Source: Candidatus Gracilibacteria bacterium CG2_30_37_12
GTDB lineage: Bacteria; Patescibacteriota; Gracilibacteria; BD1-5; UBA2023
DNA length: 15,248 nucleotides
Direction: 5' to 3'
NCBI GenBank assembly: GCA_001873165.1
Contig: MNYO01000092.1
Location: forward strand, 1-15,248
A model generated the notes under the pieces. That model was not told the origin of the DNA. It was given only the letters and a program-made list of their open reading frames with translations, and did no database searches. This document shows positions 533-14,976 of the stretch, one piece after another (the stretch's first letter is position 1; each line of letters begins with the position of its first letter). Both the position numbers and the translations under genes were made by a program.

Positions 533-1234
533 ATGCAATCAGCAACTATTCAACAAGAATTCACCAAGAATATCTTTGGACTTTCTATTCCAGTACTGGC
601 ACTCGATGTCGTTATATTTACCATCTATCATGGAGTCCTCTGTCTCGTACTGGCAAAACGAGAAAAAGAACCATCCAAAGGAACTTTTATCCTCCCCGGT
701 GGACTTATGAAAGTAGGTATTTCCCTCGAAGAAAACTTTGATGATATCCTTCTTCGAAAAACAGGAATCACAGAAGTTTACAAAGAACAACTCTATAGTT
801 TTGGTGAACCAGATCGTGATACCAGAGGACATATTGTGACTGTTGCTTACTATGCACTCGTGGATAATGACGTACTCCTTCGAACTGCTGATCTCACCCG
901 AGTACAACTCATAGAATACAATTCTCTCGATACTACATCAATTGGTTTTGATCACAAGAAAATTATTCAGTACGCTCACCAGCGTCTCATTTGGAAGTTT
1001 GAATACACCAATATTGCCATGAATATTCTCCCAAAACAATTCACACTCTCCGAACTCCAGTGAGTTTATGAGATGATTCTCGGCAAAGAACTCGACAAAC
1101 GAAACTTTCGGAAGAAAATTCTCTCTCTTGAGATGATTCAAGAAACAGGAGAACTTGATCGAGATAGTTCCAATCGTCCTGCGAAACTTTATGAATTCAA
1201 AGACAAAGAACTTAAAATTGTGGAGGTGTTTTAG
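533..1234 (+). CDS. nrtR: NrtR-type Nudix/winged-helix regulator (UGA read as Gly)
   Basis: A 233-residue protein of the NrtR family: an N-terminal Nudix domain that senses ADP-ribose-type nucleotides, joined to a C-terminal winged-helix DNA-binding domain (about residues 165-233). In NrtR-type proteins this controls NAD or sugar metabolism genes. Residues 55-79 (PGGLMKVG... to TGI) are the Nudix box, but the catalytic REUxEE positions are replaced (D, I, R, K). This fits a ligand sensor without hydrolase activity. FGEPDRDTRGH at 90-100 is also typical. The reading frame meets TGA at codon 177 (base 1061), inside the family motif FTLSELQ-x-VYEMILG; reading it as Gly continues through LDKRNFRRK-like sequence to TAG at 1232. 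The start is placed at the ATG at 533; in-frame upstream codons look non-coding. Its target genes are not evident here. Confidence 0.85.
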
Positions 1235-1272
1235 TGAATTACTGTGATGGACTATGTTCTTCACGACACACG

Positions 1273-1304
1273 AAAAAGGGCGCCCGGAAGTGCCCTTTTA
1301 TTTT
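1273..1304. terminator. Bidirectional rho-independent terminator
   Basis: AAAAGGGC (1274-1281) pairs with GCCCTTTT (1292-1299) around a 10-base loop, followed by TTTTATTTT on the plus strand and preceded by a run of A that becomes TTTTT on the minus strand. It can end the NrtR transcript (plus) and the 1538-1273 RNA (minus). Confidence 0.85.
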
Positions 1305-1333
1305 CTCTGTGAGAGATTTTTTGATTAGCATAG

Positions 1334-1513
1334 CTAACCAAAGCCCGTCCCTTGTCCTCTAAGGAGCAGTCGACGTTTCGGAAGAGGACTTTTATCTCCT
1401 CTCTCACAGATAGTATTGAAGTATTGATCTACGGTTATCCCGTAAACAAATACACTCTTTGAAATTATTTTCTCCCAGAACATATGGAGGAAATAGATGA
1501 TGGATTTCATCAT
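1334..1513 (-). CDS. Possible small ORF (59 aa) with strong Shine-Dalgarno
   Basis: ATG-ATG at 1513-1508 is preceded at 5 bases by AGGGAGG (1525-1519), the best Shine-Dalgarno in the window, and lies just downstream of a good promoter. The frame runs 59 codons to TAG with no TGA. The product begins MMKSIIYFLHMFWEKI, hydrophobic and aromatic at first, then turns strongly basic (LPKRRLLLRG). The second half of the frame is the paired RNA described above and the start codons lie in a 6-bp hairpin, so the peptide may be a leader, or the ORF may be an accident of an RNA gene. No family recognised. Confidence 0.3.
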   Translation of the reverse strand: MMKSIIYFLHMFWEKIISKSVFVYGITVDQYFNTICERGDKSPLPKRRLLLRGQGTGFG

Positions 1514-1544
1514 GTTAGCCTCCCTAGTTGGTTGAATTTCCTGT

Positions 1545-1572
1545 ATTATATGAAGAACCTCTTGTAAGTTAA
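1545..1572 (-). promoter_or_regulatory. Promoter of the small RNA/ORF unit
   Basis: On the minus strand TTAACT (1572-1567), a 16-base spacer and a consensus TATAAT (1550-1545). Transcription would start near 1538, about 13 bases before the Shine-Dalgarno of the small ORF. It sits just after the mnmA stop, so this unit need not be read through from mnmA. Confidence 0.5.
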
Positions 1573-1582
1573 TTCTTTTTAA

Positions 1583-2632
1583 TTATTCAATAATCCCACT
1601 CGCAATAAGTTCGTCACCATCGTAAATCACAATCATCTGACCACTGGTAATTGCTCGTTGTGGAGAGATAAATCGCACTCTAACACGATTTTCGCCATCT
1701 TGGACACATTCGATGTCTTGGTTATCCTGTCGGTAGCGAATCTTGGCTCGAGCCGAAAATGGAAATACTCGAGTTTCAGCAACCCAATGCCAATCTATCG
1801 CAGTTAATTCACTAGAATAGAGTTCGAGTTCTGCCTCCGTCCCGACGATGATAGTATTCTTCATGATATCTTTGGCAATAACAAAAAGGGCTGGACCTCA
1901 TCCCACCTGAATTCCTTTTCTTTGACCAATCGTATAACTAAAAGCTCATTCATGCGTTCCAAGAATATTCCCGTGAATATCGAGAATATTTCCTGGTTTC
2001 TTAGGAAGTCGTTTCTCGAGAAATTCTTTCATACTTACCTTCCCAATAAAACAGAGTCCTTGACTATCTTTTCGAGCAGCATTCGGAAGTCCTGCCCTTC
2101 TCGCTATCTCTCGTACTTCTGGTTTCTCTAGGTGTCCAATAGGAAAAAGCGCATGAGAAAGTTGGAATTGATTCAATCGAGACAGAAAATAGGTCTGATC
2201 CTTATTCGGATCCACTCACTTCAGAAGATGATATATCCCATCGTTCTCTTCTATCCTCGCATAGTGACCTGTGGCAATCTTGTCGAAACCGTATTCGAGC
2301 GCCTCTTTGAGAAAACAATCGAATTTCACAAGGTTATTACAGAGGATATCAGGATTAGGAGTGAGTCATTTCTGGTATCCTTCATAAATATAGTTCACAA
2401 TTCGTTTCTCATATTCTTCCCGGAAATCGAAGGTATGAAATGGAAGTCAGAGATATTCAGCAACCTTCCTTGCCTCTTCTATATCGACAAGTGTTGGGCA
2501 ATCTTCCGTATCTGAGATATAGTTGATCATAAAACCACACGAAACATCATACCCAGCTTCACGCAGAAGATAAGCAACAACAGCAGAATCTACTCCGCCT
2601 GAGAGTCATACGAGGATTTTAGTTTTTTTCAT
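1583..2632 (-). CDS. mnmA: tRNA-specific 2-thiouridylase MnmA (six UGA-Gly codons)
   Basis: MnmA adenylates and thiolates U34 of tRNA for Lys, Glu and Gln, using ATP and a persulfide sulfur donor. The 349-residue frame from the ATG at 2632 to TAA at 1583 shows the PP-loop SGGVDS (11-16), the catalytic CNN after TPNPDIL (Cys98), the KDQTYFL motif (144-150), the second catalytic Cys in QGLCFIG (Cys194), YTIGQRKG and the C-terminal beta-barrel. It is normal in length. Six in-frame TGA codons (residues 9, 62, 89, 139, 229, 245) fall where MnmA proteins carry Gly or a small residue, including VG-LSGG, KG-LTPNPD and HEG-x-x-YTIGQ. This gene is the strongest single proof of the altered code. It lies 73 bases after the ABC ATPase gene in the same direction, probably cotranscribed. 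Confidence 0.97.
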
Positions 2633-2705
2633 AAAGAAGGGATTGTATCAAATCGGGAACTTCGTCCCAGTGGTGTATTCTTTGGGATATTTGGAAAATT
2701 TCAAT

Positions 2706-3455
2706 TTAGATCACCTCCAAATGTCCTTCCGTGTTCTCTTCTATCTTTTGTATGAAATATTCTTCGAGAGGTTCTTTCAAATCTTTCACTTTTTCACTCG
2801 TAACAAGGTGTCCTTGGTGAATAATAGCAAAGGAATCACAGATGGACTCTACATCCGAAAGGATATGGGTATTGAAAAATACTGTTGTCCCTTTCGCTTT
2901 CAACTCAAGTATGAGGTCTTTAACCATCTTTCGACCAATAGGATCCAGCCCGCTCATCGGCTCATCGAGGAATACAATGGAAGGATTATTAATAATCGCC
3001 TGCCCGAGTCCGATTCGTTGCAACATCCCTTTTGAATATTTCGCAAGAAGTTTATCACCTGCCTTATGAAGTCCCACCTTATGAAGGATTTCTTCGATTC
3101 GCTCTTCGAGTTCACTATCAGAAATTTGAAAGAATTTTCCATTGAAACGGAGAAATTCTCGACCAGTCAAGTATTTATAAAGGTAGGTATTCTCTGGCAT
3201 AAATCCGATTTTTTCTTTGGTTTCATTGGAAAGATTTGTATCACCGAGGATACTGATAGTTCCCTCATCTGGGCGAATGAGTCCAAGAATAGCTTTCATA
3301 GTGGTTGTTTTTCCTGCACCATTTGGTCCGAGAAATCCGAATACTTCTCCAGAAAAAATGGAGAGATTTACATCGAAAAGTATTTGTTTCCCATCGAGGT
3401 ATTTACTCAGATTTTCTATTAAAACTGCGGGTGTTGGTATTTCTATTGTGCTCAT
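2706..3455 (-). CDS. ABC transporter ATP-binding protein (ABC-2 type)
   Basis: A 249-residue ATPase subunit that would drive a membrane permease. Visible motifs are Walker A GPNGAGKT (43-50), a Q-loop region with MPENTYLY (86-93, Glu in place of Gln, as in CcmA/NatA-like members), the signature YSKGMLQR (140-147), Walker B IVFLDEP (160-166), D-loop SGLD, and the H-loop His197 (NTHIL). The YSKGMLQR signature is typical of ABC-2 exporters for drugs, Na+ or lipid-linked polymers. No permease gene is adjacent, so the partner must be encoded elsewhere. The ATG at 3455 gives the usual start just before the first strand; an in-frame ATG at 3506 would add 17 atypical residues. No in-frame TGA. The substrate cannot be told. 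Confidence 0.92.
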   Translation of the reverse strand: MSTIEIPTPAVLIENLSKYLDGKQILFDVNLSIFSGEVFGFLGPNGAGKTTTMKAILGLIRPDEGTISILGDTNLSNETKEKIGFMPENTYLYKYLTGREFLRFNGKFFQISDSELEERIEEILHKVGLHKAGDKLLAKYSKGMLQRIGLGQAIINNPSIVFLDEPMSGLDPIGRKMVKDLILELKAKGTTVFFNTHILSDVESICDSFAIIHQGHLVTSEKVKDLKEPLEEYFIQKIEENTEGHLEVI

Positions 3456-3785
3456 ATATATATTTTGGATAAAAAATATTTCTCCTATTATAGAAAAATG
3501 TTTCATTTTTCAAAATTTCCTTGCAAAAATCTCAACAATTCGTATCATAACACGTTCCTGTTTTAGGGAAATTACATTCCTCTTTCAATAACACATATGA
3601 AAGAGAAATATGTATATATTTTATTACGATGACGAAATGGTCTTGGAAAACAAGAAAATGTTTACTGACTTCGTTTCGACGAAAAATAAATATATATACA
3701 TATGGGATGTAATGATACACTTTTCAGGACTTTCTATTCTTTCACTTTTCAAGTTATGTCACATTCATGCGATTTCGAAGAAATT
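3456..3785. other. Divergent intergenic region, no gene seen
   Basis: This 330-base, very AT-rich stretch separates the divergent ABC ATPase and peroxiredoxin genes. On the minus strand a TATAAT at 3492-3487 with a weak TTTTGA 17 bases upstream may start the ABC-mnmA operon. On the plus strand TTGCAA (3521-3526), 16 bases and TATCAT (3543-3548) is a possible but distant promoter for the peroxiredoxin. A small dyad TTCGT-TTCG-ACGAA lies at 3670-3683. Open frames across it (about 61-62 codons on both strands) look like translated AT-rich DNA and were not called. Confidence 0.5.
3487..3492 (-). promoter_or_regulatory. Probable -10 element of the ABC ATPase-mnmA operon
   Basis: A consensus TATAAT on the minus strand, about 32 bases before the ABC ATPase start at 3455. 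The -35 is poor (TTTTGA at 17 bases). An AGGAGA just downstream is too far from the ATG to act as its ribosome binding site. Confidence 0.35.
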
Positions 3786-4373
3786 ATGTTCGTAAAAATC
3801 GATGAGCCAGCTCCTGGTTTTGATCTTCCGGCATATGACCCTATTAAAGACGATGAAACACGAGTTTCCCTCGAATCTCTTGCGGGGAAATGGTCCGTTC
3901 TCTTCTATTATCCAGCTGATTTTACTTTTGTTTGTCCAACAGAATTGAAGGATATGGCAGATATGAAAAGTCGTTTCGACGAACTCGGAGTAACTATTCT
4001 CACTGCTTCCACTGATACTCATTTCTCTCATCGAGCTTGGGTAAAACATGAGCGCCTTATGGAAGGTTTCCCTTATACGATGCTTGCTGATCATAATGGA
4101 GAAGTTGCTTCTATGTATAATATCCTCGATTTCAATAGTGGAATCGCTGGACGGGGAACTTTCGTCATCGATCCAGATGGAATCGTTCGCGCTATTGAAG
4201 TAACTTCTGGACCACTCGGACGAAATAGTGCCGAACTCATCCGAAAAATTGAAGCTCTTCAGTTTATGCGAGCCAATCCAGGAACTGCTTGTCCAGCAAA
4301 ATGGGCAATCGGAGCAAAAACTCTTACTCCTTCTATCAAAATCGCTGGAGAAGTATATGAGGCACTCCAATAG
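3786..4373 (+). CDS. ahpC: 2-Cys peroxiredoxin (AhpC/Prx1 type)
   Basis: A thiol peroxidase that reduces hydrogen peroxide, organic hydroperoxides and peroxynitrite in the cytoplasm. The 195-residue product has the thioredoxin fold with the peroxidatic Cys50 in FTFVCPTEL, the catalytic Thr47 and Pro43 of the active-site loop, and Arg/Trp of the RAW motif. The resolving Cys169 lies in GTACPAKW. Length is normal for typical 2-Cys enzymes. The C-terminus ends EVYEALQ without a YF motif, and GGLG is not present, so by family knowledge it should resist over-oxidation. The start at 3786 (MFVKIDEPAPGF) matches the family; in-frame ATGs upstream add unrelated residues. No AhpF or thioredoxin reductase is adjacent. 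It contains no in-frame TGA and ends in TAG, followed by a strong terminator. Confidence 0.96.
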   Translation: MFVKIDEPAPGFDLPAYDPIKDDETRVSLESLAGKWSVLFYYPADFTFVCPTELKDMADMKSRFDELGVTILTASTDTHFSHRAWVKHERLMEGFPYTMLADHNGEVASMYNILDFNSGIAGRGTFVIDPDGIVRAIEVTSGPLGRNSAELIRKIEALQFMRANPGTACPAKWAIGAKTLTPSIKIAGEVYEALQ

Positions 4374-4391
4374 GCCTTGAAGAATCGACAA

Positions 4392-4440
4392 AAAAACACT
4401 CCCCCAGAACAGCAAAGTTCTCGGGGAGTTTTGTTATTTT
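4392..4440. terminator. Bidirectional terminator between convergent genes
   Basis: A stem of CTCCCCcAGAAC (about 4398-4410) with GTTCTcGGGGAG (4417-4429) around the loop AGCAAA. It has flanking A and T runs on both sides, so it can stop the peroxiredoxin transcript (plus) and the 168-residue gene (minus). The minus-strand gene's TAA (4436-4434) sits at the base of the stem. Confidence 0.9.
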
Positions 4441-4940
4441 CTGCTTCCGTTTCGTCTGGAAAGACGAGAAGAAGTCAGATTTTGTATTTTTGCTCGTCCA
4501 TCGCGGTGAATTCCACGAGGGATGTTTAGCTTCATCAACAAAGAATGTTTCGTCGGTATCGCCTTCATTCGATGCTTTGGATGAGAGTAATATGGAAAAA
4601 CTGGCCGATGATTGATTTTGCACAAAATAGAATTCGCAAACAATCCTATCTGAACTGTCTCGTTCATTATCCTGTCAATATCCACAAGTGCAAGCCCCAA
4701 TGACAATACTACTATATTTCCTTTTCTCATTTCCAGTTCCTCTCTTGTGACAAATATAAAATCCTGAGGGTCCCCAGAATCAAACATAACCCGATTCAAT
4801 AACTCCAATTGTTCTTGAAGATGCTGATTTGGAGGATGTATAATTACCATTCTCGGAATATATCCCATTTCTGGATCTTCATCAGGAGTATTTCCCCAAT
4901 CAATATGTTCTTCATTTCCTATATTTATGTCTTCTGTCAT
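4434..4940 (-). CDS. Hypothetical protein (168 aa)
   Basis: I do not recognise a family. The product has an acidic N-terminus (about residues 1-25, rich in D, E and N), a probable alpha/beta core (about 29-115) with IPRMVIIHPP, LQEQLELLNRVMF, DFIFVTREELE and NIVVLSLGLALVDIDRIM, and a strongly basic tail (about 120-168) ending SRLSRRNGSRK that could bind nucleic acid. No signal peptide, membrane segment or metal motif. The start at 4940 is chosen because GGGAG lies about 8 bases upstream; an in-frame ATG at 4958 lies before that site. It is divergent from gltX and convergent with ahpC, so it is a single-gene transcript. It contains no in-frame TGA and ends in TAA. Confidence 0.75.
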   Translation of the reverse strand: MTEDINIGNEEHIDWGNTPDEDPEMGYIPRMVIIHPPNQHLQEQLELLNRVMFDSGDPQDFIFVTREELEMRKGNIVVLSLGLALVDIDRIMNETVQIGLFANSILCKINHRPVFPYYSHPKHRMKAIPTKHSLLMKLNIPRGIHRDGRAKIQNLTSSRLSRRNGSRK

Positions 4941-4980
4941 TTTGTTTCTCCCTCGCATTATTTTGAAACAAGTTATGAGG

Positions 4981-5007
4981 ATAATATGGTTTTTCTCTAA
5001 AAGTCAA
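4981..5007 (-). promoter_or_regulatory. Promoter of the 168-aa protein gene
   Basis: On the minus strand TTGACT (5007-5002) and TATTAT (4986-4981) with a short 15-base spacer. The start codon is about 40 bases downstream. It lies back to back with the gltX promoter. Confidence 0.4.
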
Positions 5008-5022
5008 TGGGAATACTTCGTA

Positions 5023-5050
5023 TTGCTTTTTATCATCAAATTCATATGAT
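5023..5050 (+). promoter_or_regulatory. Promoter of gltX
   Basis: TTGCTT (5023-5028), a 16-base spacer and TATGAT (5045-5050) would start transcription near 5057, about 25 bases before the ATG at 5082. This argues against the longer gltX frame, whose ATGs at 5007 and 5046 lie upstream of that start site. Confidence 0.4.
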
Positions 5051-5081
5051 ATCGCCAATTATTTCTCTTTCCCATTCTCTT

Positions 5082-6722
5082 ATGACCGATTCCAATCTCG
5101 CAATTGCCAACCTTCTTTTTCCCAATCCTTCCTATACTCTGGAAGAACTCGAAAATATATACCCCAATAGAACGGTATCAATCGTGACTCGTGTCAGTCC
5201 AAGTCCAACGGGGTTTTTGCATATAGGAACCGTCTATACAGCACTTCTCTCGGAACGTCTTGCTCATCTGAATGGTGGAGTATTTTACCTCCGCAATGAA
5301 GATACAGACGATAAACGTGAGATTGAAAATGCTGCCAGTACGATTGTAAATGGGATTCAAAAATTTGGAATCACTATCGATGAAGGAGCTATCGGTCCAG
5401 ATGGTTCTGATATAGGAAAATATGGACCATATACCCAATCCAAACGTGGACCGATTTATCAATCTTATGTACGAGATATGATCGCTCGAGGGATGGCGTA
5501 TCCTTGTTTCTTGGATGAGGCGGAAACCACCACTATTCGTGCCGAACAAACGGTTTCGGGACAGCCGACAGGAATCTATGGTTCTTATTCTCCTTGGCGA
5601 GTAGCGACTCTGGAGGAGGTACAAGGGGCGATTGTAGCAGGGAAGAAATATGTCGTTCGCCTCCGGAGTCATGGAAATCCGAGTAAGCGAGTAAAACTTG
5701 TAGATGAAATTCGTGGAGAGATCGAAATGCAAGATAATTTCATGGATACCGTTCTCTTGAAACAAACTGGTATTCCCACTTATCACCTTGCTCATGTGGT
5801 GGATGATCACCTGATGCGAACAACTCATGTAACTCGTGGTGATGAATGGCTTCCATCCTATCCGCTCCACGTACAACTTACCGAAGCTCTTGGATTCACT
5901 CTTCCGCAATACATCCATATTTCCCCGCTTATGAAAACAGATGGTGGTGGAAAACGAAAACTTTCTAAACGAAAAGATCCCGAGGCAAATGTAGAATACT
6001 TTTTCGAGCAAGGCTATATTATCGAGGCACTTATCGACTATATGCTCGGTATTATGGATTCCAGATATGAGGCTTGGAGACTTGAAAATCCAACGGCAGA
6101 CTACCGCAGCTACCCTCTCACCACTGAGAAACTTCCACTTTCTGGAGCTCTTTTCGATATCACGAAACTTGATTCCATCGCGAACAATTTTTTGACGAAA
6201 CTATCCACTGAAGAACTTCAATCACAAGGACTTGAATGGGCTCGAAAATATGACAAAGAACTTGCAAAACTTATGGAAGTATATCTAGATCTCACCTATC
6301 GAGCACTCGATATAGAGCGCCACACCGAAAAAGATCCACGAAGATTCACGAAATTTTCGGACCTCCGAGGGCAACTCCAGTTTTTCTATACAGAAACTTT
6401 CGAAACTATGAAAAATGCCGCACCAGCCCTTCCCGAGTGCATAACTCCCGAAGTTCGCCAGGCTTTCGTAGAGGATTATATGAAATCTTATGACCCAGCT
6501 ATGGAGCGAGAAGAATGGTTCGAGCAACTCAAGAATCTCGCACATATGCACAAATTCGCTCGAACGGGTGAAGAATGGAAAACGGGTGAATATCTCGGAA
6601 AGGTTGGAGATATTGCTATGATGCTCCGCCTCCTTCTCTGTGCTTCTACTAAAACTCCCGATCTCTGCTACACAATGAAAGTACTTGGGAAGGAAGTTAT
6701 GGAAAAGAGGCTCTGAGAGTAA
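5082..6722 (+). CDS. gltX: Glutamyl-tRNA synthetase (ends Gly-Glu through UGA)
   Basis: Class I aminoacyl-tRNA synthetase that charges tRNA-Glu (and possibly tRNA-Gln if non-discriminating). The 546-residue product has an extra 30 or so residues (LFPNPSYTLEELE) before the first strand, then SPSPTGFLHIG with the HIGH-type motif at 47-50, the NEDTDDKRE substrate loop, the Glu-specific TRGDEWLPSYP region and the KMSKS-type motif KLSKR (293-297), followed by a helical anticodon-binding domain. ATG 5082 is preferred because the likely promoter lies directly upstream. Under the standard code the frame would stop at TGA 6714, but reading this as Gly (residue 545) adds only Gly-Glu before TAA at 6720. 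The TGA-GAG-TAA ending is easy to misannotate. It heads a plus-strand run with the methyltransferase and VTT genes. Confidence 0.95.
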
Positions 6723-6817
6723 AAATTTTCTTCTCATATTACCAGTTCGGTTTTTTACGTATATTTTACAGGTACTCTCTATACTCAATATCTCTTACCT
6801 CAACGTACCTATTATTT

Positions 6818-7357
6818 ATGTCATTTCTCAAAAGTGTTTTTAGTAATTATCGCACAATTGGAGCCATAAGTCCTTCTTCTCCGTTTCTCTACAAACAAAT
6901 GATTAGCCCAATGGACCTCTCTTATGACATCCATATTGTCGAGTTTGGGGCAGGAAGTGGGACTTTTACTGATGCACTTCTCAAGAAGATTACCCTCGGA
7001 TCTAGTCTCAGCATCTTCGAGATTGACCCGCTTTTTATCAAAAAACTACAACTCAAATACAAAGGAGACAATAGAGTGGTAGTTTACTCCCTCGGAGCAG
7101 AGGAATCTACTAAATTTTTTGAACCAGAAAGTATAGATTATATTATCAGTTCTCTCCCATTTGGCTTTATGAATTCTGCTTTGGTCTTTCATATATTAGA
7201 AAGTGCAAAACATATTTTAAAGAAACAAGGGAAATTTATCCAGTTTCAGTATTTTCTCCAGAACAAAAAACATATTCACCAGATATTTCCTAAAGTTCGA
7301 TATAGATTTACACTCTTGAATCTCCCGCCAGCTTTTATATATATTTGCAAGAAGTAA
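6818..7357 (+). CDS. SAM-dependent methyltransferase, PmtA-like
   Basis: A 179-residue Rossmann-fold methyltransferase. The start FLKSVFSNYRTIGAISPSS (3-21) and the SAM-binding motif IVEFGAGSGTFT (40-51) are characteristic of the phospholipid N-methyltransferase (PmtA)/KsgA-like group. An acidic residue at the end of the second strand (FEID, 67-70) would bind the SAM ribose, and SSLPFGF (111-117) matches the SxLPF substrate-side motif of PmtA-like proteins. Family knowledge suggests phosphatidylethanolamine methylation, but small rRNA or other methyltransferases share these motifs and CPR bacteria often lack lipid synthesis, so the substrate is uncertain. It lies 95 bases after gltX and 12 before the VTT gene. 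No in-frame TGA; the stop is TAA. Confidence 0.8.
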   Translation: MSFLKSVFSNYRTIGAISPSSPFLYKQMISPMDLSYDIHIVEFGAGSGTFTDALLKKITLGSSLSIFEIDPLFIKKLQLKYKGDNRVVVYSLGAEESTKFFEPESIDYIISSLPFGFMNSALVFHILESAKHILKKQGKFIQFQYFLQNKKHIHQIFPKVRYRFTLLNLPPAFIYICKK

Positions 7358-7369
7358 TCAATTTCTCCA

Positions 7370-8008
7370 ATGAGCTACACACGTAAACCCCTTCTATTAA
7401 TAATAATTATCCTTCTGTTTACAGTCGGGATTTTTACGAGTACTTATCTCTATATAACAGGGTTTGATTTAAAAGCTTTTTTTACCTCTTTGGATATAAA
7501 TATCTACGGAAAAATAGGGATTCTTTTTCTCTTCTATGCTTTTCGGAATTATCTTTTTGTACCATCCACTGTTATTATTATTCTCTCGGGAGTTGTATTA
7601 CAGGATTTCCTTCTCACAGCTATTGTGAGTATCATCGGGGTCGGTATCGGTATCGCGGAAACCTATACCATTGGATATCTCTTTCGTAAAAATGTCGTGG
7701 AAGATAATAAAAAACTTCCAATTATTAATAAGTATAAGAAGCAGATACAGGAAAATGGCGTAAAAATCGTATTTTTCAGTTGTATGTTTCCGCTCACGCC
7801 AGTTGATCTTCTCTATTATGCAGCAGGGTTTGTGAAATATAGGTTTACTCCTTTTTTCCTAGCAGCTATCGCTGGAGAGATGTGGCTCATCCTTCTCTAT
7901 TCCTACCTCGGAGTCGAAGCACAAAAATATACAAGTTTTGCCGTGTATTTTGCTGGATTTTTCATAGTAGGATTTGGTGGGTGGTGGATATGGAAGAAAA
8001 GGGAATAG
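7370..8008 (+). CDS. VTT/DedA-family (TVP38/TMEM64) membrane protein
   Basis: A 212-residue integral membrane protein with about five or six hydrophobic segments (roughly 7-29, 47-66, 68-92, 129-152, 158-177, 186-207). The central part, with FVPSTVIIILSG (about 63-74), a glycine-rich VGIGIAETYTIGYLFRK stretch and MFPLTPVDLLYYAAGF (about 139-154), matches the VTT (SNARE-associated) domain of TVP38/DedA proteins. These have been linked to lipid scramblase or undecaprenyl-phosphate recycling roles. The gene follows the PmtA-like methyltransferase by 12 bases, so the two probably act in membrane lipid biology together. No in-frame TGA; the stop is TAG. The exact substrate cannot be told. Confidence 0.85.
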   Translation: MSYTRKPLLLIIIILLFTVGIFTSTYLYITGFDLKAFFTSLDINIYGKIGILFLFYAFRNYLFVPSTVIIILSGVVLQDFLLTAIVSIIGVGIGIAETYTIGYLFRKNVVEDNKKLPIINKYKKQIQENGVKIVFFSCMFPLTPVDLLYYAAGFVKYRFTPFFLAAIAGEMWLILLYSYLGVEAQKYTSFAVYFAGFFIVGFGGWWIWKKRE

Positions 8009-8009
8009 A

Positions 8010-8044
8010 ATGATTGAATTTTTTTTGACAAAAAATTCAATCAT
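8010..8044. repeat. Perfect 15-bp inverted repeat overlapping a promoter
   Basis: ATGATTGAATTTTTT (8010-8024) and its exact complement AAAAAATTCAATCAT (8030-8044) flank a 5-base centre TTGAC. The centre plus the first A of the right arm is the consensus -35 of the next gene. It begins just after the VTT stop codon. Without a T-run after the right arm it is a poor terminator on the plus strand; an operator or DNA-cruciform role at the promoter is more likely. Confidence 0.7.
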
Positions 8045-8054
8045 ATGATATATT
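8025..8054 (+). promoter_or_regulatory. Promoter of the EEP hydrolase gene
   Basis: Consensus TTGACA (8025-8030), an 18-base spacer and TATATT (8049-8054). Transcription would start near 8061, about 20 bases before the ATG at 8080. The -35 sits at the centre of the perfect dyad at 8010-8044, so a protein bound to the dyad would block it. Confidence 0.6.
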
Positions 8055-8079
8055 GTAGGTAATTCACTTTATTATCTGG

Positions 8080-8982
8080 ATGATTATAACATATCTTCTT
8101 GAAGCAAATATTGGTATGTGACTTGATCATCAGAACTCTCCTTGGGAAATAGCTCGTGCCGCTGGTGCTTTCTTTCTTATCAGAGACCCTGAAGTTTTTA
8201 GGAAACATTCAGAAGTTCAGAGCTATTGTCGGTATATTGAAAAACAAAATCCGGATGTTATTTTCTTGACGGAAGTATGCGGGGAAGATCAAAAAGATGA
8301 TATATGTGATTTCTTGGAATCCAAAGGATATCATCTCCAATTCATGCGCGCATTTGAGCTCCATAATATGAATGCGGAATCACACCGGTTTCTCTATAAC
8401 ATCATTGCATCGAAGACCCCGATCATCACTCATAACGAGTTCCAATCAAAAGTGCAACACAAGATTTCGGAGAAAATCTATTCGTTTTCACGAATAAAAA
8501 ATCGACTATGAAAGACGGATGATGCAACATATACTGAGCTAAAGACCAAGAAATTTGTTTGAGGTATTCTCGATGGAGCGGGAGCACATTGTGAGATAGA
8601 CGGGATTCATTTCTGACTCTTACATGCTCATGGTACCTCGAGTTCCATTATCGAAAACCTCCGAGACAGTCTCCCAGAAGGTACAAAAGGTATCCTCTGA
8701 GGGGATTTCAATGTGACGCAGGAGAAATGAAAGATGCTTGCAGGAGAGAGATTCTCATATATAGAACCAAATACGAGAACCTTTCCGTATTACGGACAAA
8801 ATGACGGAATAATTTCCCGCACTATCCATAGACTCGCCAATAATTCTCAAGCTATGCTCAGTCACCCAGACCAGTTTTATAAAAACAGTTCTATTTTATG
8901 AGCGACCGCTCGGGTTCTCTGACCACGAGAAATAGGACTTGGAAGCGACCATGCGGTGACACATGTGCATATAGGAGAATAA
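8080..8982 (+). CDS. EEP-family metal-dependent phosphodiesterase (eight UGA-Gly codons)
   Basis: A 300-residue protein of the endonuclease/exonuclease/phosphatase fold, which hydrolyses phosphodiester bonds with Mg2+. Motifs appear in the family order: Asn10 in LEANIG, the metal ligand Glu65 in VIFLTEV, LHAHGTS (181-187), GGDFN with Asp209 and Asn211, and the C-terminal SDH with Asp290 and His291. It is complete from ATG to TAA only if TGA is read as Gly, at residues 14, 144, 161, 179, 207, 217, 274 and 281; the one at 207 is the first Gly of GGDFN. This is the highest UGA density in the window. No signal peptide is visible, so it is probably intracellular. Members act on DNA, RNA, phosphoinositides or nucleotides, so the substrate is open. 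It converges on the lytic transglycosylase gene with only 9 bases between the stops. Confidence 0.88.
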
Positions 8983-8991
8983 TTTTCCTAC

Positions 8992-10923
8992 CTATTTTAG
9001 ATACATTCCTGCTATTTGTATAGTCTTAAGTACATATGTCTGTGATTCATTGTAAGTACTATGGATATTCCCAATCTGTGCTTTTATTTCTGTAATTTCA
9101 GCAGAAGAGAGGTGATCATATTTCTTCATCGTATGTTTATTTGTCATTTGTTGAAACTTCTGTAATTTCTCTTCCAGAGGCTTTATGTGTGCCTTCCTTG
9201 CCTGCTCCATCTTTTCGAAAATCACTTGAGAAGTGAGTCTCTTTTTATATTCTCAGAGAGGTGCGTCTATTGGGATATCTCCGAATATTTCTTTAATAAT
9301 CCGTGCCATATTTCCATTATACCCTGCAGCCCAAAGAGCCATTATATATATGCGAGTGTGTGAATCGGTTATAAGCTCTTGCCAGTGATCTCGGATAGGT
9401 TTCGGAAACTGACATATTTGATCATCAAAATGTGCTACTTGGAGACGAAAACTCGCATGATGATCTTGTGATGCAGTCTGGAAATCGAGTCACTTAAACC
9501 AGTCACTATATTTAGGATGTTTCTGATAGAGAGCGAGAGTACTTGGCATCATTTGTCCAATACCCGCGGCTCAAACTTTACTTTTCTGCCATTGATAAGA
9601 CTCCTTGTCATTGAGTCAAATAGTTGTCAGAGCTTGGGTGGCTTGTTTTTTCATGATTACGTTAATCTCTCTTGGATCCTTGAGAGTAAGTCCATCGGGT
9701 TTATAATACACCTGATAATCCATTCTCTCTACGAGATTGAGAAGAAGTGGGAAATGAGGAGGAATCGCTTTATTGATCGTCAATCCTGGTATCGTACTGT
9801 GAATCTCCGATATTTTTTTCCCAGACACAGGAAAATTATATGACTCTCCCATCTCTTTTGAAAGATATACATATCATTTATCTTGTACTTTTGAAGTATT
9901 CAGCTTCTCTGTAAAAGGAACATATGGGAAATACTGATAGGGAGATGTATGAGCCAAATTTTCTTTTGTCTGATTCAGTTGTTTTTTTGTTTCTCTTTCT
10001 TGCTCTTGCAACTCTGCAAGCTCTTTTCTATGATCTGTATGTTTTATTCTGATTCCTTTCTTTCTATGAGCACTCTGCTTGCGTGATAGGGAAATTTTTG
10101 ATGTCTGAGAAAGTGTATGAATACGATTCTCTATGCTTGATAGTTGTGTTTCTAATTCTCGTTTTTCATCTAATTCTTTCTTGTAATCTGGAGTATCGGC
10201 AGGATACAAGATATCAAGTTGTGTAGCCATTCCTCTTGGCTTCATAATGATATCATACGCCGTATTATATCCATTCGATTTTGGCTTGGGAGTGAGAGAA
10301 AAATGGATTCCCGAGGTTTCTACCTGAATAACCTTATTCTCATTATTGGTTCGTGGTATTGGCAATAATATAAAATCTCCCCTTTCATGAGTCGTATTAG
10401 TATAATGCACGAGTAAAACGGCTTTTCCAAAATATTGTTCTGAAAGAGGTTTTGTATTCTCAGTGAGATATTTTTTCCCTATCCCTGAGAGGAGAAGTTC
10501 ATCAATCTTTGGCTTTTTCTCAACTACTTTTTCTTGATCAAGAAAAGATGTTATCGAATGTAATTTTTCCAGAAACCATCATTTTGGATTCTCGGAAAAT
10601 ATTGGAGTTTTCTTTTGAGACTGAAAATGTCTCAATTGCTGTATCCTATCGTATTCAGTCCAAATAGTTTCTCAAGGAGACTTTTTCTGAACCACACCAT
10701 TTTGAAGAGTGGCCTCGGGGGATATATGTTTCTCAGAAGAAGGAGTAAGATTTTGTGTGTGTTTAGTCGTATCCATATTTTCTGAAAAAACTGGTTGACT
10801 TATGAGTGTCGCAACGAGCAAACAAACACCGGGAGACAAAAACAATATCTTGCTTTGTGGTTCACTCGATGAAGCATTTCTAGATATTGAAAAATCTTCT
10901 CTCGGAGAGGATGATGTGTTCAT
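8992..10923 (-). CDS. Membrane-anchored SLT lytic transglycosylase (seven UGA-Gly codons)
   Basis: A 643-residue enzyme predicted to cleave peptidoglycan between MurNAc and GlcNAc. A hydrophobic segment at about 25-46 (signal anchor or signal peptide, possible cleavage after FS at 47) puts the rest outside the membrane. Residues 248-325 look like a charged coiled coil with a basic break. The SLT domain is at about 425-550, with the catalytic Glu441 in NDKESYQWQ, then VG-AAGIGQMMPS (450-461), and AAGYNGN (532-538) in place of the usual AYNAG. A second charged helical stretch follows to the end. TGA is read as Gly at 84, 115, 350, 436, 451, 478 and 557; 451 is the conserved Gly of the GA-GxxQ motif. 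Under the standard code only four fragments would be seen. It is the last gene of a cluster with a VirB4-type ATPase, which suggests the VirB1-like role of opening the wall. Confidence 0.88.
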
Positions 10924-10947
10924 AGTATGGAATATATATGAATTCTT

Positions 10948-11154
10948 TTAAACCATTTCTACCTCCACGCCGTCAAAATTGACTTTGTCTCCTTTTCGGA
11001 GCTTTTTTCGAAGCTGTAGTTCTGTTACGCCATTCAGAGTCACGAGTCCCTGAGATATAGCAATCTTTGCCTGTCCACCAGTCTCGGTGAGTTGCAAGAG
11101 TTTCATAAGTTTATTCATCTCGATATATTCGGATGTAAGGGTGAAAGTTTTCAT
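10948..11154 (-). CDS. S4-domain RNA-binding protein (YbcJ/YaaA type)
   Basis: A 68-residue single-domain protein. From about residue 11 it follows the S4 fold used to bind structured RNA: IEMNKLMKLLQL, then GGQAKIAISQGLVTLNG (26-42), RKKLRKGDKVNFDG (49-62). Free-standing S4 proteins of this size (YbcJ/RlbA/YaaA group) are linked to ribosomes or RNA, and often sit next to recF. An in-frame ATG at 11190 would overlap the preceding gene; the one at 11154 (MKTFTLTSEY) fits the family start and leaves a 10-base gap. It lies inside the VirB4-transglycosylase cluster, 24 bases before the transglycosylase. No in-frame TGA; the stop is TAA. Confidence 0.85.
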   Translation of the reverse strand: MKTFTLTSEYIEMNKLMKLLQLTETGGQAKIAISQGLVTLNGVTELQLRKKLRKGDKVNFDGVEVEMV

Positions 11155-11164
11155 AAAAAGGTTT

Positions 11165-11689
11165 TTAGTAAGTAATAGTATTAATATCAAGACAAGCAGC
11201 TACAAATAAGTATCGAAGTGCTTCCATGACCCTCTCGTTGGTTTGTATAATTATCTTATCCGTATTTATCTCTGCCCCTTTACTAGAAGTGAAAGTAATG
11301 GTATGCGGAGATATTCTCCTCTTTTTTATAGTCATAGATACTGTTTCCTCTGTCTTTTGAATTACTAAGAAAACATCTTCTATATCATGTCATGATCGGA
11401 TTTTTACTTCCGTAAGATTGTTTGTACATACTAATACTGGGAAACCTTCCGTAGTAGAATCATTGTTTATGGCTCATATAAGATATTCTAGTGCTGCGCG
11501 TACATGGGGCATCTCATCTCCACCCCCAATTCCCCGAACATAGAATGCTCCATCTCCTCAAGAACCGTCAGTGGGACAATCCGTAAGTAAACTGATAACA
11601 CTCTCACTAAATCGATACTGCGAAATACTTAATCGTGCTAATGTACCATCTTTTCAACAATCTAACAACTCAGCCTCGTTATTTTTCAT
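11165..11689 (-). CDS. Unknown 174-aa protein (four UGA-Gly codons)
   Basis: A complete frame from ATG 11689 to TAA at 11165, invisible under the standard code because TGA occurs at codons 12, 44, 72 and 100. It fills exactly the gap between the VirB4-like gene (18 bases upstream) and the S4 gene (10 bases downstream), which supports it being real. The product is rich in Gly around 42-57 (DGSGGDGAFYVRGIGGGDE), with possible helices at 60-75 (VRAALEYLIGAI) and near the C-terminus (ERVMEALRYLFVAACL), and beta-like stretches between (FPVLVCTNNLTEVKI, VFLVIQKTEETVSMTIKK). No membrane segment or signal peptide, and no family I recognise. Its position suggests a role in the same machine or its regulation. 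Confidence 0.8.
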
Positions 11690-11707
11690 ACTAGATATAG
11701 TAAATGT

Positions 11708-13666
11708 TTACTTCCCTGCATTTGGATTCGTCGTTATAACCTGTTCTTCGAAGTAACTCGCGAGAACTTGTATTCCCACGTGCTCCGTTCCGGCAAAGAA
11801 AAGTCCTTGTCCAACGGAGGAATTCAGGAGGATATATTTCTCTTGTTCCGTGAGTTTAAAGACATTTTGCAGGACATCGATAGAAGCAGGAGATTGTTTG
11901 AGAAGGAGTTGTATAGAGGAGTTTGTCACAATAGCTTTTCCCTGAGGACTTCCCATAAAATCCTCGACATCTTGTGTGATGGTCGTTACTCCGAGTCCGT
12001 ATTTTCGAGCTCGTTTTACAAGGCCGAAAATGAATTTCGCACAATCTTCATATTGCATAAGATTCCATGCCTCATCAATAACGAGAACGCGTTTACGAAG
12101 AGAACTTCGTGTGATGTTCCACACATATCCGAGCATCATATACATGGCAATGGGTCGAAGTATTTCGTCCAAATCACGGACAGAGAACACCACAAGTCCT
12201 TCTGTCAGATTAATATTGGTTGGTTCTGAAAATACCCCGGAAAATATTCCGGTTACGTACTTCTCAAGTCGTTCACATATCCCCTTTGCACCATCCATGG
12301 TTTCGAGGACAGAATAGAGTTCTTTCATTACTGGAACCTCTTTCCCAGTAATATCATCATCTGTCATGGTAATCCCTTTCAGGGAATATGTCGTAACAAT
12401 AGCCTTTTCCAGTATGGACACCTCGGATGGAGTACATTTCCCGAGCATCAGATTCATAAGTCCGAGAAGATTTATGACCGCGCCACGGAGAAGATCTCCA
12501 GATTTCGTCTCAGTATCTTTCAGAGCTCGCGGGAGATCAAATGGATTGATTCGTTCATTGGAGTTCAGATTGATATTGACATACGTTCCACCGACGGTGT
12601 CCACGAGCGTTTTATACTCATTTTCTGGATCGAGAACGATGACGTCGGTTCCGAGCATAAGTGAACGGAGAATCTCAAGCTTCACCGCAAAGGATTTTCC
12701 TCATCCTGACTTCGCAAATACGACCATATTGGCATTTTCTGTACGAAATCGATCGAAGATAATAAGGGAATTATTATGGGTATTGATTCCATAAAGGATT
12801 CCATCATCCTGAGAAAGAGAATTGGAAGTGAATGGAAAAGTAGTCGAAAGTCCCTTCGTAGAGATATTACGGTACACTCCCACTTCATCCCGAGCAAATG
12901 GACCAGTTGCGATAAATCCCTGTTCTGATCGGAGAAATGCTTGTTTCGTGAGAATATTACGTCCGGAGAGAAGCGTATCAAGAGTGTTGGAAAGTTTCTT
13001 CACTTGTTCCTCTGAATCAGCATAGATACTGATATAGATAGAGAAATGAAAATATCGTTCCTGTCCTCGCGTCAAACTCGAACGAAGTTCTTCTACATCC
13101 TGCACCTGAGCATCGAGAGCGGGATCATTTATGAGTCCTTTGTCCATATTAATAGAACGTTCAGAATGGAGTTCTGTCAGACGTTTTCGAAGATATTTCA
13201 TAATATATGCCGACTCGATCGGGTATATAAACATAGACATATCAAACTTCACATCCCAGTTGATAAGCGGTCCGAGCCAGTTCCCTTCGAGAAAATCTGG
13301 ATACGCATACGTGAAAAATGTTCGAATATAGGTATCTCCTATTTGAAGTTTCGTCGCATCGATTTTCATCATAGAAGGAGCGATTGCATCTTTGACAAAT
13401 GCGAGTGCTTCACGATATTCCTTCTCTCCTTGTCGAATCTCATCTGCCTCTTGTTTGGTAAGTTTTTTGGAGGTATTTTCAGTCACTACTGGTACCTCAG
13501 GAGAAAATGGGGGAGTTATTTCTGCGGGTGTTGGAGCTGATATATTCTCAAGAAATGAGGTTGGAGTGACAGCAACATCTTGTTGTTTTAAAAGATCTTG
13601 TTCATATCCAAGTGCATCACCGGTGTAGTTCTTTGCAATAAGATCGAGAAGTGCTTGATTTGCCAT
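11708..13666 (-). CDS. VirB4-like type IV secretion ATPase (UGA-Gly in the P-loop)
   Basis: A 652-residue VirB4/TraC-type AAA+ ATPase that powers type IV secretion or conjugation machines from the cytoplasmic face of the membrane. A Pro-rich linker (about 38-64) precedes the N-terminal VirB4 domain. Walker A is AKSGGGKS (318-325), in which Gly322 is the in-frame TGA at 12703-12701. LDPENEY (345-351) and NPFDL (374-378) are VirB4-family motifs. Walker B is LVIDEAWNLM (528-537) and a late TQDVEDF motif follows. Without UGA as Gly the gene splits into two ORFs exactly at the P-loop. The start at 13666 (MANQALLDLIAKN) is preferred over an ORF extension to 13714 because that crosses a likely promoter region. 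It is slightly shorter than classic VirB4 (about 790 residues). PrgI- or VirB6-like partners are not in the window. Confidence 0.92.
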
Positions 13667-13704
13667 AAAAAAATATTTTCGAGAAGTAGAAGTATTGTGT
13701 TTTA

Positions 13705-13719
13705 CTACAGTCACTGCAG
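13705..13719. promoter_or_regulatory. Dyad at the transcription start of virB4-like cluster (candidate operator)
   Basis: CTACAGT (13705-13711), one central base, and ACTGCAG (13713-13719) form an inverted repeat with one mismatch. It overlaps the likely transcription start just downstream of the -10 element, where a repressor would act. Confidence 0.35.
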
Positions 13720-13745
13720 TATACGAAGAGTTCGGTAAAATTCAA
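13718..13745 (-). promoter_or_regulatory. Promoter of the VirB4-like cluster
   Basis: On the minus strand TTGAAT (13745-13740), a 16-base spacer and TATACT (13723-13718). Transcription would begin near 13711, about 45 bases before the ATG at 13666. It lies in the 97-base gap after the phosphatase gene, so the cluster can be transcribed separately. Confidence 0.45.
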
Positions 13746-13763
13746 TCTTTTAGTGAAAATATA

Positions 13764-14948
13764 TTATTCTCTCCAATTCCATTCGGTTATAAATTGAGGG
13801 GCAATTTCTGGGGAAACATTATTTTCTATGATGGAATTTCCTTTGTTATGCATAACAATCAAAGTGATATCATCGAACTGTCGATATCCGTACCCCATAA
13901 ATCTGGAAAGTTCTATGGTAATATTATTGAAAACTCCTTGAGCTGTTTTAATCGGTGTATGCTCAATGATTTCCATAAATCGATCCATTCCGAGCATCAT
14001 ATCACTTTCATGTTTTCCATTTCGTGCCTCTGTAATGCCATCCGTATAGAGAATAATAATATCGTCTTTCGCTATGGAAATTTCTATTTCCTTGAGGATT
14101 TTTGATATATTTTTCGTCATACCAAGGGCAACTCCTCCAGATTTAATCTTAAATGCTCGTTTTTCTGCAGCCTTGTAAATAATAAGGTATTCATGTCCCG
14201 CTCCTGTTATATACATCTTTTGTTTTTCTTCATCCCAACGAATCATAAGAAGAGTCATAAGAATATTGGACTTTACACGAGGTTTTACAATTTCATTGGT
14301 CCTTGCGAGGATATCAGCAGAATTTTCGACAATCTTTGAAAACCCTGATATAAGTGCATTTACAATCATCATAACAAATCCAGCAGCAACTCCATGTCCC
14401 GTTACATCTCCGATATAGATGTAATAATTGTGGCCCTGCTCAATGATATCGAAACTATCTCCCCCCACTTCTGTTGCAGATTTTGTATTAGCAACAACAT
14501 CCATAGATGGAATAACGACCGTATTTTTCTTCAAGACATGACGTTGAATCTCTGAGGCAAATTCTACTTCCGATTTCAAGATACGCCCCGCTTTAAACTC
14601 CTCTTTAAAATTCTTCAGAATCTCCAAACTTTTATTGAAAAAATTGATAACATATCGAGCATCTGGATTCATATTTCCCACTGTCAAAGAAGTTCCTTCT
14701 TTCGATCCAGTGATAAAAAAAGCAATCTCCTTTTTCAGACTACGAATCGGCTTTATAGAAGTTATATACGCAAGTCCGGAAAGGATGATGATTTCTCATA
14801 TGGCGATCCCAGGAAAATACGTAATATATGCCTGTAGGGATGTATATATTTCCGTTCCTACAAAGATATCACCAAAGATAAAAAATGCATCCGCCACTAA
14901 AAAGAGGAAAACAAAGATAAAAAAAATATTACGCAGAAGAAAATTCAT
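13764..14948 (-). CDS. Membrane-anchored SpoIIE/RsbU-type PP2C phosphatase
   Basis: A 394-residue signalling phosphatase. Two hydrophobic segments (about 7-26 and 45-64) enclose a short external loop; a HAMP-like linker (IKPIRSLKKEI, 65-75) and helical region follow, then the SpoIIE/PP2C domain from about 120. Metal-binding motifs are intact: EVGGDSFD (160-167), IGDVTGHGVAAG (179-190), LYTDGITEA (300-308) and DDITLIV (359-365). Such enzymes dephosphorylate anti-sigma antagonists (STAS proteins) in partner switching. No STAS or anti-sigma kinase gene is in the window. The true start, ATG 14948, is hidden because codon 51 in the second membrane segment is TGA (14798-14796), read as Gly; the standard code would trim the membrane part and leave a seemingly soluble protein. 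The stop is TAA. Confidence 0.9.
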
Positions 14949-14976
14949 AAACAATGATGGGATTAAATACTTCTGT

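Follow-up and report, generated by a model that had tools for sequence, protein, structure and literature searches.

The 15,248-nt stretch of DNA analysed here (the window) is one contig (C98) of the assembly of Candidatus Gracilibacteria bacterium CG2_30_37_12, which holds 946,456 bases in 134 contigs and is 90.5% complete. Comparison of its genes with their homologues indicates that the window almost certainly belongs to a Gracilibacteria genome that would use NCBI genetic code 25, in which UGA is translated as glycine. The assignment of UGA to glycine in a preliminary description of the window is correct, and the code is one already known. Placement in the Gracilibacteria or Absconditabacteria, proposed in the same description, agrees with the relatives of GltX, all five of which that carry names (5/5) were deposited as Candidatus Gracilibacteria. 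A side result, the retention of UGA in the Walker A loop of VirB4, may be new.

TGA as a sense codon

When genes were called with code 25 on both strands of the whole window, 29 in-frame TGA codons were found in eight of the 14 complete genes (Table 1), the same count as in the preliminary description. TAA or TAG ends all 14 genes, as had been stated for the genes recognized there, and TGA ends none. Use of the codon is uneven (0 to 31% of the glycine codons of a gene; permutation p 0.00015): UGA makes up 20-31% of glycine codons in four genes (mnmA and the genes labelled EEP-like, SLT-like and orphan) and 0-8% in each of the remaining ten. Coding density was compared in 145,949 bases of the same genome (the window and 17 contig stretches), where open reading frames (ORFs) of at least 100 aa covered 0.636 of the sequence with TGA as a stop and 0.856 with TGA as a sense codon; as controls, opening TAA or TAG gave coverages of 0.773 and 0.666. 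TGA was present in 103 of the 126 ORFs of this sample and accounted for 375 of its 2,522 GGN and TGA codons.

If TGA were instead a stop, the genes that contain it would be broken or read through. Six of the 14 window genes are free of TGA, and gltX, virB4, the phosphatase gene and the NrtR-like gene carry one each, which is compatible with such a reading. The gltX codon precedes TAA by two codons, so that translation with code 11 would remove two residues only; TAA or TAG stands at exactly the later stop position in five of five relatives, and TGA is therefore favoured as a sense codon here as well. The gain in coding density and the lack of genes ending at TGA, together with the retention of TGA at the same mnmA codons in relatives (40 of 107 cells) and the failure to find release factor 2 (RF2), both described below, refute the stop reading, whose probability we consider negligible.

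Glycine at UGA positions

TGA codons were masked as X before alignment, so that the answer could not steer the alignment. All six masked codons of MnmA aligned with glycine in each of the four displayed solved chains (4/4), which we take to be from S. pneumoniae and E. coli, as expected from the earlier statement that codons 9 and 89 lie at conserved glycines. Codons were then compared with those of relatives (17-18 genomes per codon). The 107 cells facing the window's own TGA codons, all from mnmA, held TGA in 40 and GGN in 61, so that 101 are TGA or glycine; the remainder were GAA (three), AGA, AAC and GAT (a single cell for each), and tryptophan never occurred. TGA columns lacking an enrichment in glycine, which the preliminary description had named as a refutation, were thus not seen. 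In the reverse comparison, 174 TGA cells of relatives faced 40 TGA, 104 GGN and 30 other codons in the genome studied here. In G001:C3, G003:C3, G004:C65, G012:C1, G027:C1, G035:C4 and G036:C13, mnmA was matched in two or three pieces, and the break near own residue 125-132 resembles a variable-length insert after the TGHYAR motif.

Reassignment of UGA to tryptophan (code 4) is, as the available part of PMC8629427 also indicates, the commoner bacterial change, and database proteins of relatives carry tryptophan at expected glycines, which we take to reflect translation with code 4. The codon exchange table refutes this alternative: TGG was paired with none of the 107 own and none of the 174 relative TGA cells, and the 95 cells facing own TGG codons held tryptophan in 91 and TGA in none, in line with the earlier argument that tryptophan has its usual codon. 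With the six of six glycines facing masked MnmA codons, tryptophan at UGA is extremely unlikely.

Decoding machinery

A single match to the release-factor domain was found in the strain's own assembly, and its scores identify it as RF1 (prfA 457.2, above the cut-off of 423.25; prfB 268.6, below 370). RF2 was not found in this assembly by the release-factor domain search with NCBIfam cut-offs, as the preliminary description had anticipated. Across 59 genomes (own included), one match was found in 52, two in one and none in six, the matches of relatives being counted without classing as RF1 or RF2.

The second expectation of that description, a tRNA-Gly with anticodon UCA, was borne out in congeners and not in the assembly itself. 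The refuting combination named there, RF2 together with a missing tRNA-Gly(UCA), thus occurs in its tRNA part only, and for an assembly that is incomplete. Matches to a UCA tRNA, chosen by eye out of 52 pattern matches, were found in 17 of the 59 genomes, including five of six congeners. ARAGORN called an anticodon-UCA tRNA at 12 of 12 tested matches from these 17, among them four of the five in congeners, and at none of five other loci. All seven UCA tRNAs examined in full carry G1:C72, C2:G71, G3:C70 and U73 with CCA, the glycine identity criteria being those in the available part of PMC8629427. In the predicted fold the acceptor and anticodon stems are kept and the D and T arms are not (z -0.44).

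The strain's own assembly has 22 tRNAs, none with anticodon UCA, and seven amino acids are without any tRNA, so its tRNA set is incomplete. In congener G005, tRNA-Gly(UCA) lies at L158:7437-7512, followed by tRNA-Arg(GCG) at 7564-7638. Own contig C124 reaches about position 5607 of this stretch and C133 resumes at about 11311 (arithmetic from the matches); because these contig ends flank the place of the G005 tRNA, the strain's own copy would fall in the missing 5.7 kb. We infer that the strain carries the same tRNA-Gly(UCA) in this assembly gap, and that the tRNA is charged with glycine and used in decoding. Elsewhere in the G005 stretch, at L158:4850-4985 and 13160-13295, about 90-140 bases match several own contigs at about 70-80% identity, in the manner of a dispersed repeat.

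ARAGORN labelled the UCA tRNA 'SeC' at 12 of 12 loci on the basis of its anticodon. This would fit TGA being selenocysteine, as would the cysteine that three other families have as the middle Walker A residue of a second gene (see below). SelA, however, gave no match in the own genome (the same search matched in two of 14 genomes as a control), and the UCA tRNA has a 7-pair acceptor stem and, as read by eye, a short variable loop and U73. Since TGA also occurs in 103 of 126 ORFs, selenocysteine is vanishingly improbable.

Decoding of UGA as glycine would thus be carried out by a dedicated tRNA-Gly(UCA) with the identity set G1:C72, C2:G71, G3:C70 and U73. RF2, which terminates at UGA, would have been lost, and RF1 would terminate at UAA and UAG. 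UGG would be decoded by tRNA-Trp(CCA) with an ordinary five-pair anticodon stem; such a stem was read by eye in the strain's own tRNA-Trp(CCA), and is expected for such genomes according to the available part of PMC13092985.

Several observations weigh against glycine at UGA. Its identity is deduced here from sequence. The absence of RF2 is read from an assembly that is 90.5% complete, and tRNA-Gly(UCA) was not found in that assembly, including by a direct search with the congener tRNA. All six mnmA cells (of 107) that are neither TGA nor glycine lie at codon 62. Of the homologue alignments suggested earlier, that of MnmA agreed with glycine and that of VirB4 did not, since the masked residue at codon 338 faces alanine in the sole solved relative; across 29 relatives, in agreement with the code, this codon is TGA in 19, glycine in seven and serine in three. 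Three solved relatives of the NrtR-like protein have Ser, His and Lys opposite its masked residue at codon 177, and gltX codon 570 faces Lys codons in three of five relatives and a Gln and an Arg codon in the other two. The homologue tests covered the TGA codons of mnmA, virB4, gltX and the NrtR-like gene, the other 20 of the 29 being those of the EEP-like (eight), SLT-like (seven), orphan (four) and phosphatase (one) genes.

UGA in the Walker A loops of secretion ATPases

The single TGA of virB4, codon 338, encodes the middle glycine of the Walker A motif KSGGGKS. Among 43 glycine codons of virB4, one is UGA here and 38 are UGA in G016, the two ends of the range; UGA use in this gene falls as the GC content of third codon positions (GC3) rises (Spearman -0.68, 30 genomes); in mnmA it reaches 32 of 33 in G031. 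At codon 338, 20 of 30 genomes carry TGA; the UGA share of each genome would predict 5.6 (z 8.2; the largest column z in 1,000 shuffles was 4.9). This codon is the sole TGA of the aligned gene in G000, G014, G022 and G023, and is GGT in the UGA-rich G016, G017, G018 and G041. Among TGA-338 genomes codon 337 is GGA or GGT, and codon 339 is GGA in 19 of 20. Codon 36 of virB4 is also high in TGA (14/19, z 6.6), and mnmA codons 9 and 139 mildly so (z 4.4 and 4.3; the highest z in shuffles was 4.3).

A virB4 protein tree, some forks of which are weak, contains a clade of 21 genomes, and in 20 of them codon 338 is TGA. Fitted to 33 other glycine columns and simulated from a TGA start, a homogeneous gain-loss model gave a mean of 5.0 TGA tips and reached at least 20 in none of 20,000 runs. 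Because a fit for 13 low-UGA genomes gave no sensible rate (loss 125 per unit), the 21-genome fit was relied on. An out-of-frame start codon overlying the Walker A TGA was considered and rejected, as no 60 aa ORF was seen in the ORF list, read by eye.

Of 353 genomes in the class, 124 had a match to the KSGGGKS pattern. Once 20 rows whose triple included a Cys or Trp codon had been dropped, the matches listed gave 130 rows, which are related to each other and not independent. When TGA is abbreviated to T and GGN to G, the triples among the matches listed were GTG in 71, TGT in 41, TGG in six, GGT in five, GGG in five and GTT in two, with no TTT or TTG; GGN and UGA thus alternate in 112 of these 130 loops. 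Twenty-one motif neighbourhoods comprised two VirB4, two other P-loop proteins and 17 with the motif context of one second gene, whose own copy matches the type IV secretion system coupling-protein family (VirD4-like; Table 1). The Walker A TGA of the own copy is one of two TGA among 69 glycine codons. The middle residue of the second gene is cysteine (TGT or TGC) in four of the 17, from families f10, f13 and f15. Walker A triples of both type IV secretion ATPases stay mixed between UGA and GGN in UGA-rare and in UGA-rich genomes.

We tentatively propose, with less than even confidence, that site-specific selection may act on the choice between UGA and GGN in the Walker A loops of VirB4 and the VirD4-like protein, such that the triple must mix both glycine tRNAs, as GGN-UGA-GGN or, where UGA is common, as UGA-GGN-UGA. 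Candidate causes are a pause at the loop, the avoidance of three successive decodings by one tRNA, and a gradual loss that followed an ancient replacement of Cys by Gly. A TGY cysteine codon would provide a one-step origin for TGA or GGT in the middle, and would leave the opposite outer codons unexplained.

UGA may also be mainly glycine and not fully equal to GGN, being slower or slightly error-prone, with its use tuned by site; we hold this to be possible, if on balance doubtful. It is favoured by the uneven TGA use between genes, by the retention at virB4 codon 338 with the KSGGGKS alternation, and by the low levels of other residues at UGA in the available part of a proteomic study (PMC4032931). 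Against tuning at particular sites, a general alternation between middle and outer codons of glycine triples was first seen in G043 (permutation p <0.0005) and G016 (0.0095); of four further genomes, G031 showed it (0.004), G049 weakly (0.19), and G039 (0.53) and G047 (0.67) not. The alternation was not seen in the own genome or in G005. In a control glycine triple at MnmA residues 244-246, the middle codon, 245, is TGA here and in only 4 of 18 relatives. Low-UGA genomes do not generally avoid GGN-GGN-GGN (eight against 7.7 expected in the own genome; 36 against 33.6 in G005). UGA-UGA-UGA was absent from G047 (3.4 expected); adjacent UGA-UGA pairs in the own genome slightly exceed expectation (14 against 9.4, z 2.5), which speaks against an avoidance rule. 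Strong avoidance of identical neighbours was likewise seen for Lys and Phe (homopolymers) and, among Glu pairs, in G016 only.

Other features of the window

Eleven of the 14 window genes matched a Pfam family; none was matched by genes 4434-4958, 8992-10923 (SLT-like) and 11165-11689. The preliminary label of the EEP-like gene has borderline backing from Pfam (24.7 bits, cut-off 24.5) and none from the PDB, in which neither the EEP-like nor the SLT-like protein found a match. The SLT label found no support in Pfam, PDB or NCBIfam searches. Protein searches gave four matches each for these two proteins (one EEP match being the window's own), and were not counted as a test because the code used to translate the matches is uncertain. 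Database proteins P0010-P0016 of relatives have tryptophan where glycine would be expected, for instance around the DFN motif, and look code-4-like from the proteins alone. The EEP-like gene is present in two of 40 genomes (own included) and virB4 in 40 of 40.

Table 1. Features carrying in-frame TGA (positions of the window unless prefixed by a locus).
Feature	Position	Strand	Remarks
NrtR-like Nudix/winged-helix regulator	533..1234	+	1 TGA, codon 177
mnmA	1583..2632	-	6 TGA, codons 9, 62, 89, 139, 229, 245
gltX	5007..6722	+	1 TGA, codon 570 (bases 6714-6716), penultimate sense codon
EEP-like gene	8080..8982	+	8 TGA; borderline Pfam match
SLT-like gene (preliminary label)	8992..10923	-	7 TGA; no family match
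Orphan gene	11165..11689	-	4 TGA; no family match (Pfam, NCBIfam)
virB4-like ATPase (CD1110 family)	11708..13714	-	1 TGA
Walker A Gly triple, virB4 codons 337-339	12701-12709	-	
virB4 codon 338	12701..12703	-	TGA, middle Gly of KSGGGKS, Walker A loop
SpoIIE-like phosphatase	13764..14954	-	1 TGA, codon 53
VirD4-like coupling protein gene	L288:648-3590	minus	

Relation to known codes and implications

Glycine at UGA was reportedly described for SR1 and Gracilibacteria by Campbell and by Rinke in 2013. The genome resembles NCBI translation table 25 (the SR1 and Gracilibacteria code) in UGA as glycine, UAA and UAG as stops, RF2 not found, and the tRNA-Gly(UCA) of congeners with the same identity elements, the tRNA itself lying outside the own incomplete assembly; no differing feature was found. 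The Mycoplasma code 4 is similar in that UGA was made a sense codon and RF2 was lost, but differs in the amino acid and its tRNA, which are those of tryptophan and not glycine.

The literature agrees with the earlier statement that UGA is an established glycine codon in Gracilibacteria and Absconditabacteria. This includes the 2014 proteomics of Hanke, where, in the available part, 97 peptides were unique to the glycine reading and three to tryptophan (PMC4032931). The available part of PMC8629427 reports that, of 15 Gracilibacteria species, Codetta assigned UGA to glycine in 13, RF2 being present and a UCA tRNA absent in the remaining two, and that the sister lineage Absconditabacteria (SR1) shares the UGA change. 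It gives CGA and CGG as tryptophan in Absconditabacteria and predicts a CGG change for some Gracilibacteria. Here, in contrast, own CGG faced arginine in 31 of 36 cells and tryptophan in none, which rules out CGG as a tryptophan codon in this genus; own CGA faced arginine in 264 of 345, with tryptophan outside the seven commonest residues. In the parts available, prfB was undetected in every BD1-5 genome of that time (PMC6851277), and code use has been studied in phages of these hosts (PMC10746230). Titles and abstract starts in literature searches held nothing on the Walker A UGA pattern, and we make no claim that this pattern is new to the literature.

The main finding extends a known code to one further genome, with the warning that database proteins of the group may contain false tryptophans. 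If selection at the Walker A loops is real, a stop codon once captured for glycine would have taken on an additional function, such as that of a translation-speed signal at a nucleotide-binding loop. Should this side result hold, it would offer a way to ask whether a captured stop codon fully equals its synonyms, in the same genes readable across genomes where UGA makes up from 2% to 97% of virB4 or mnmA glycine codons.

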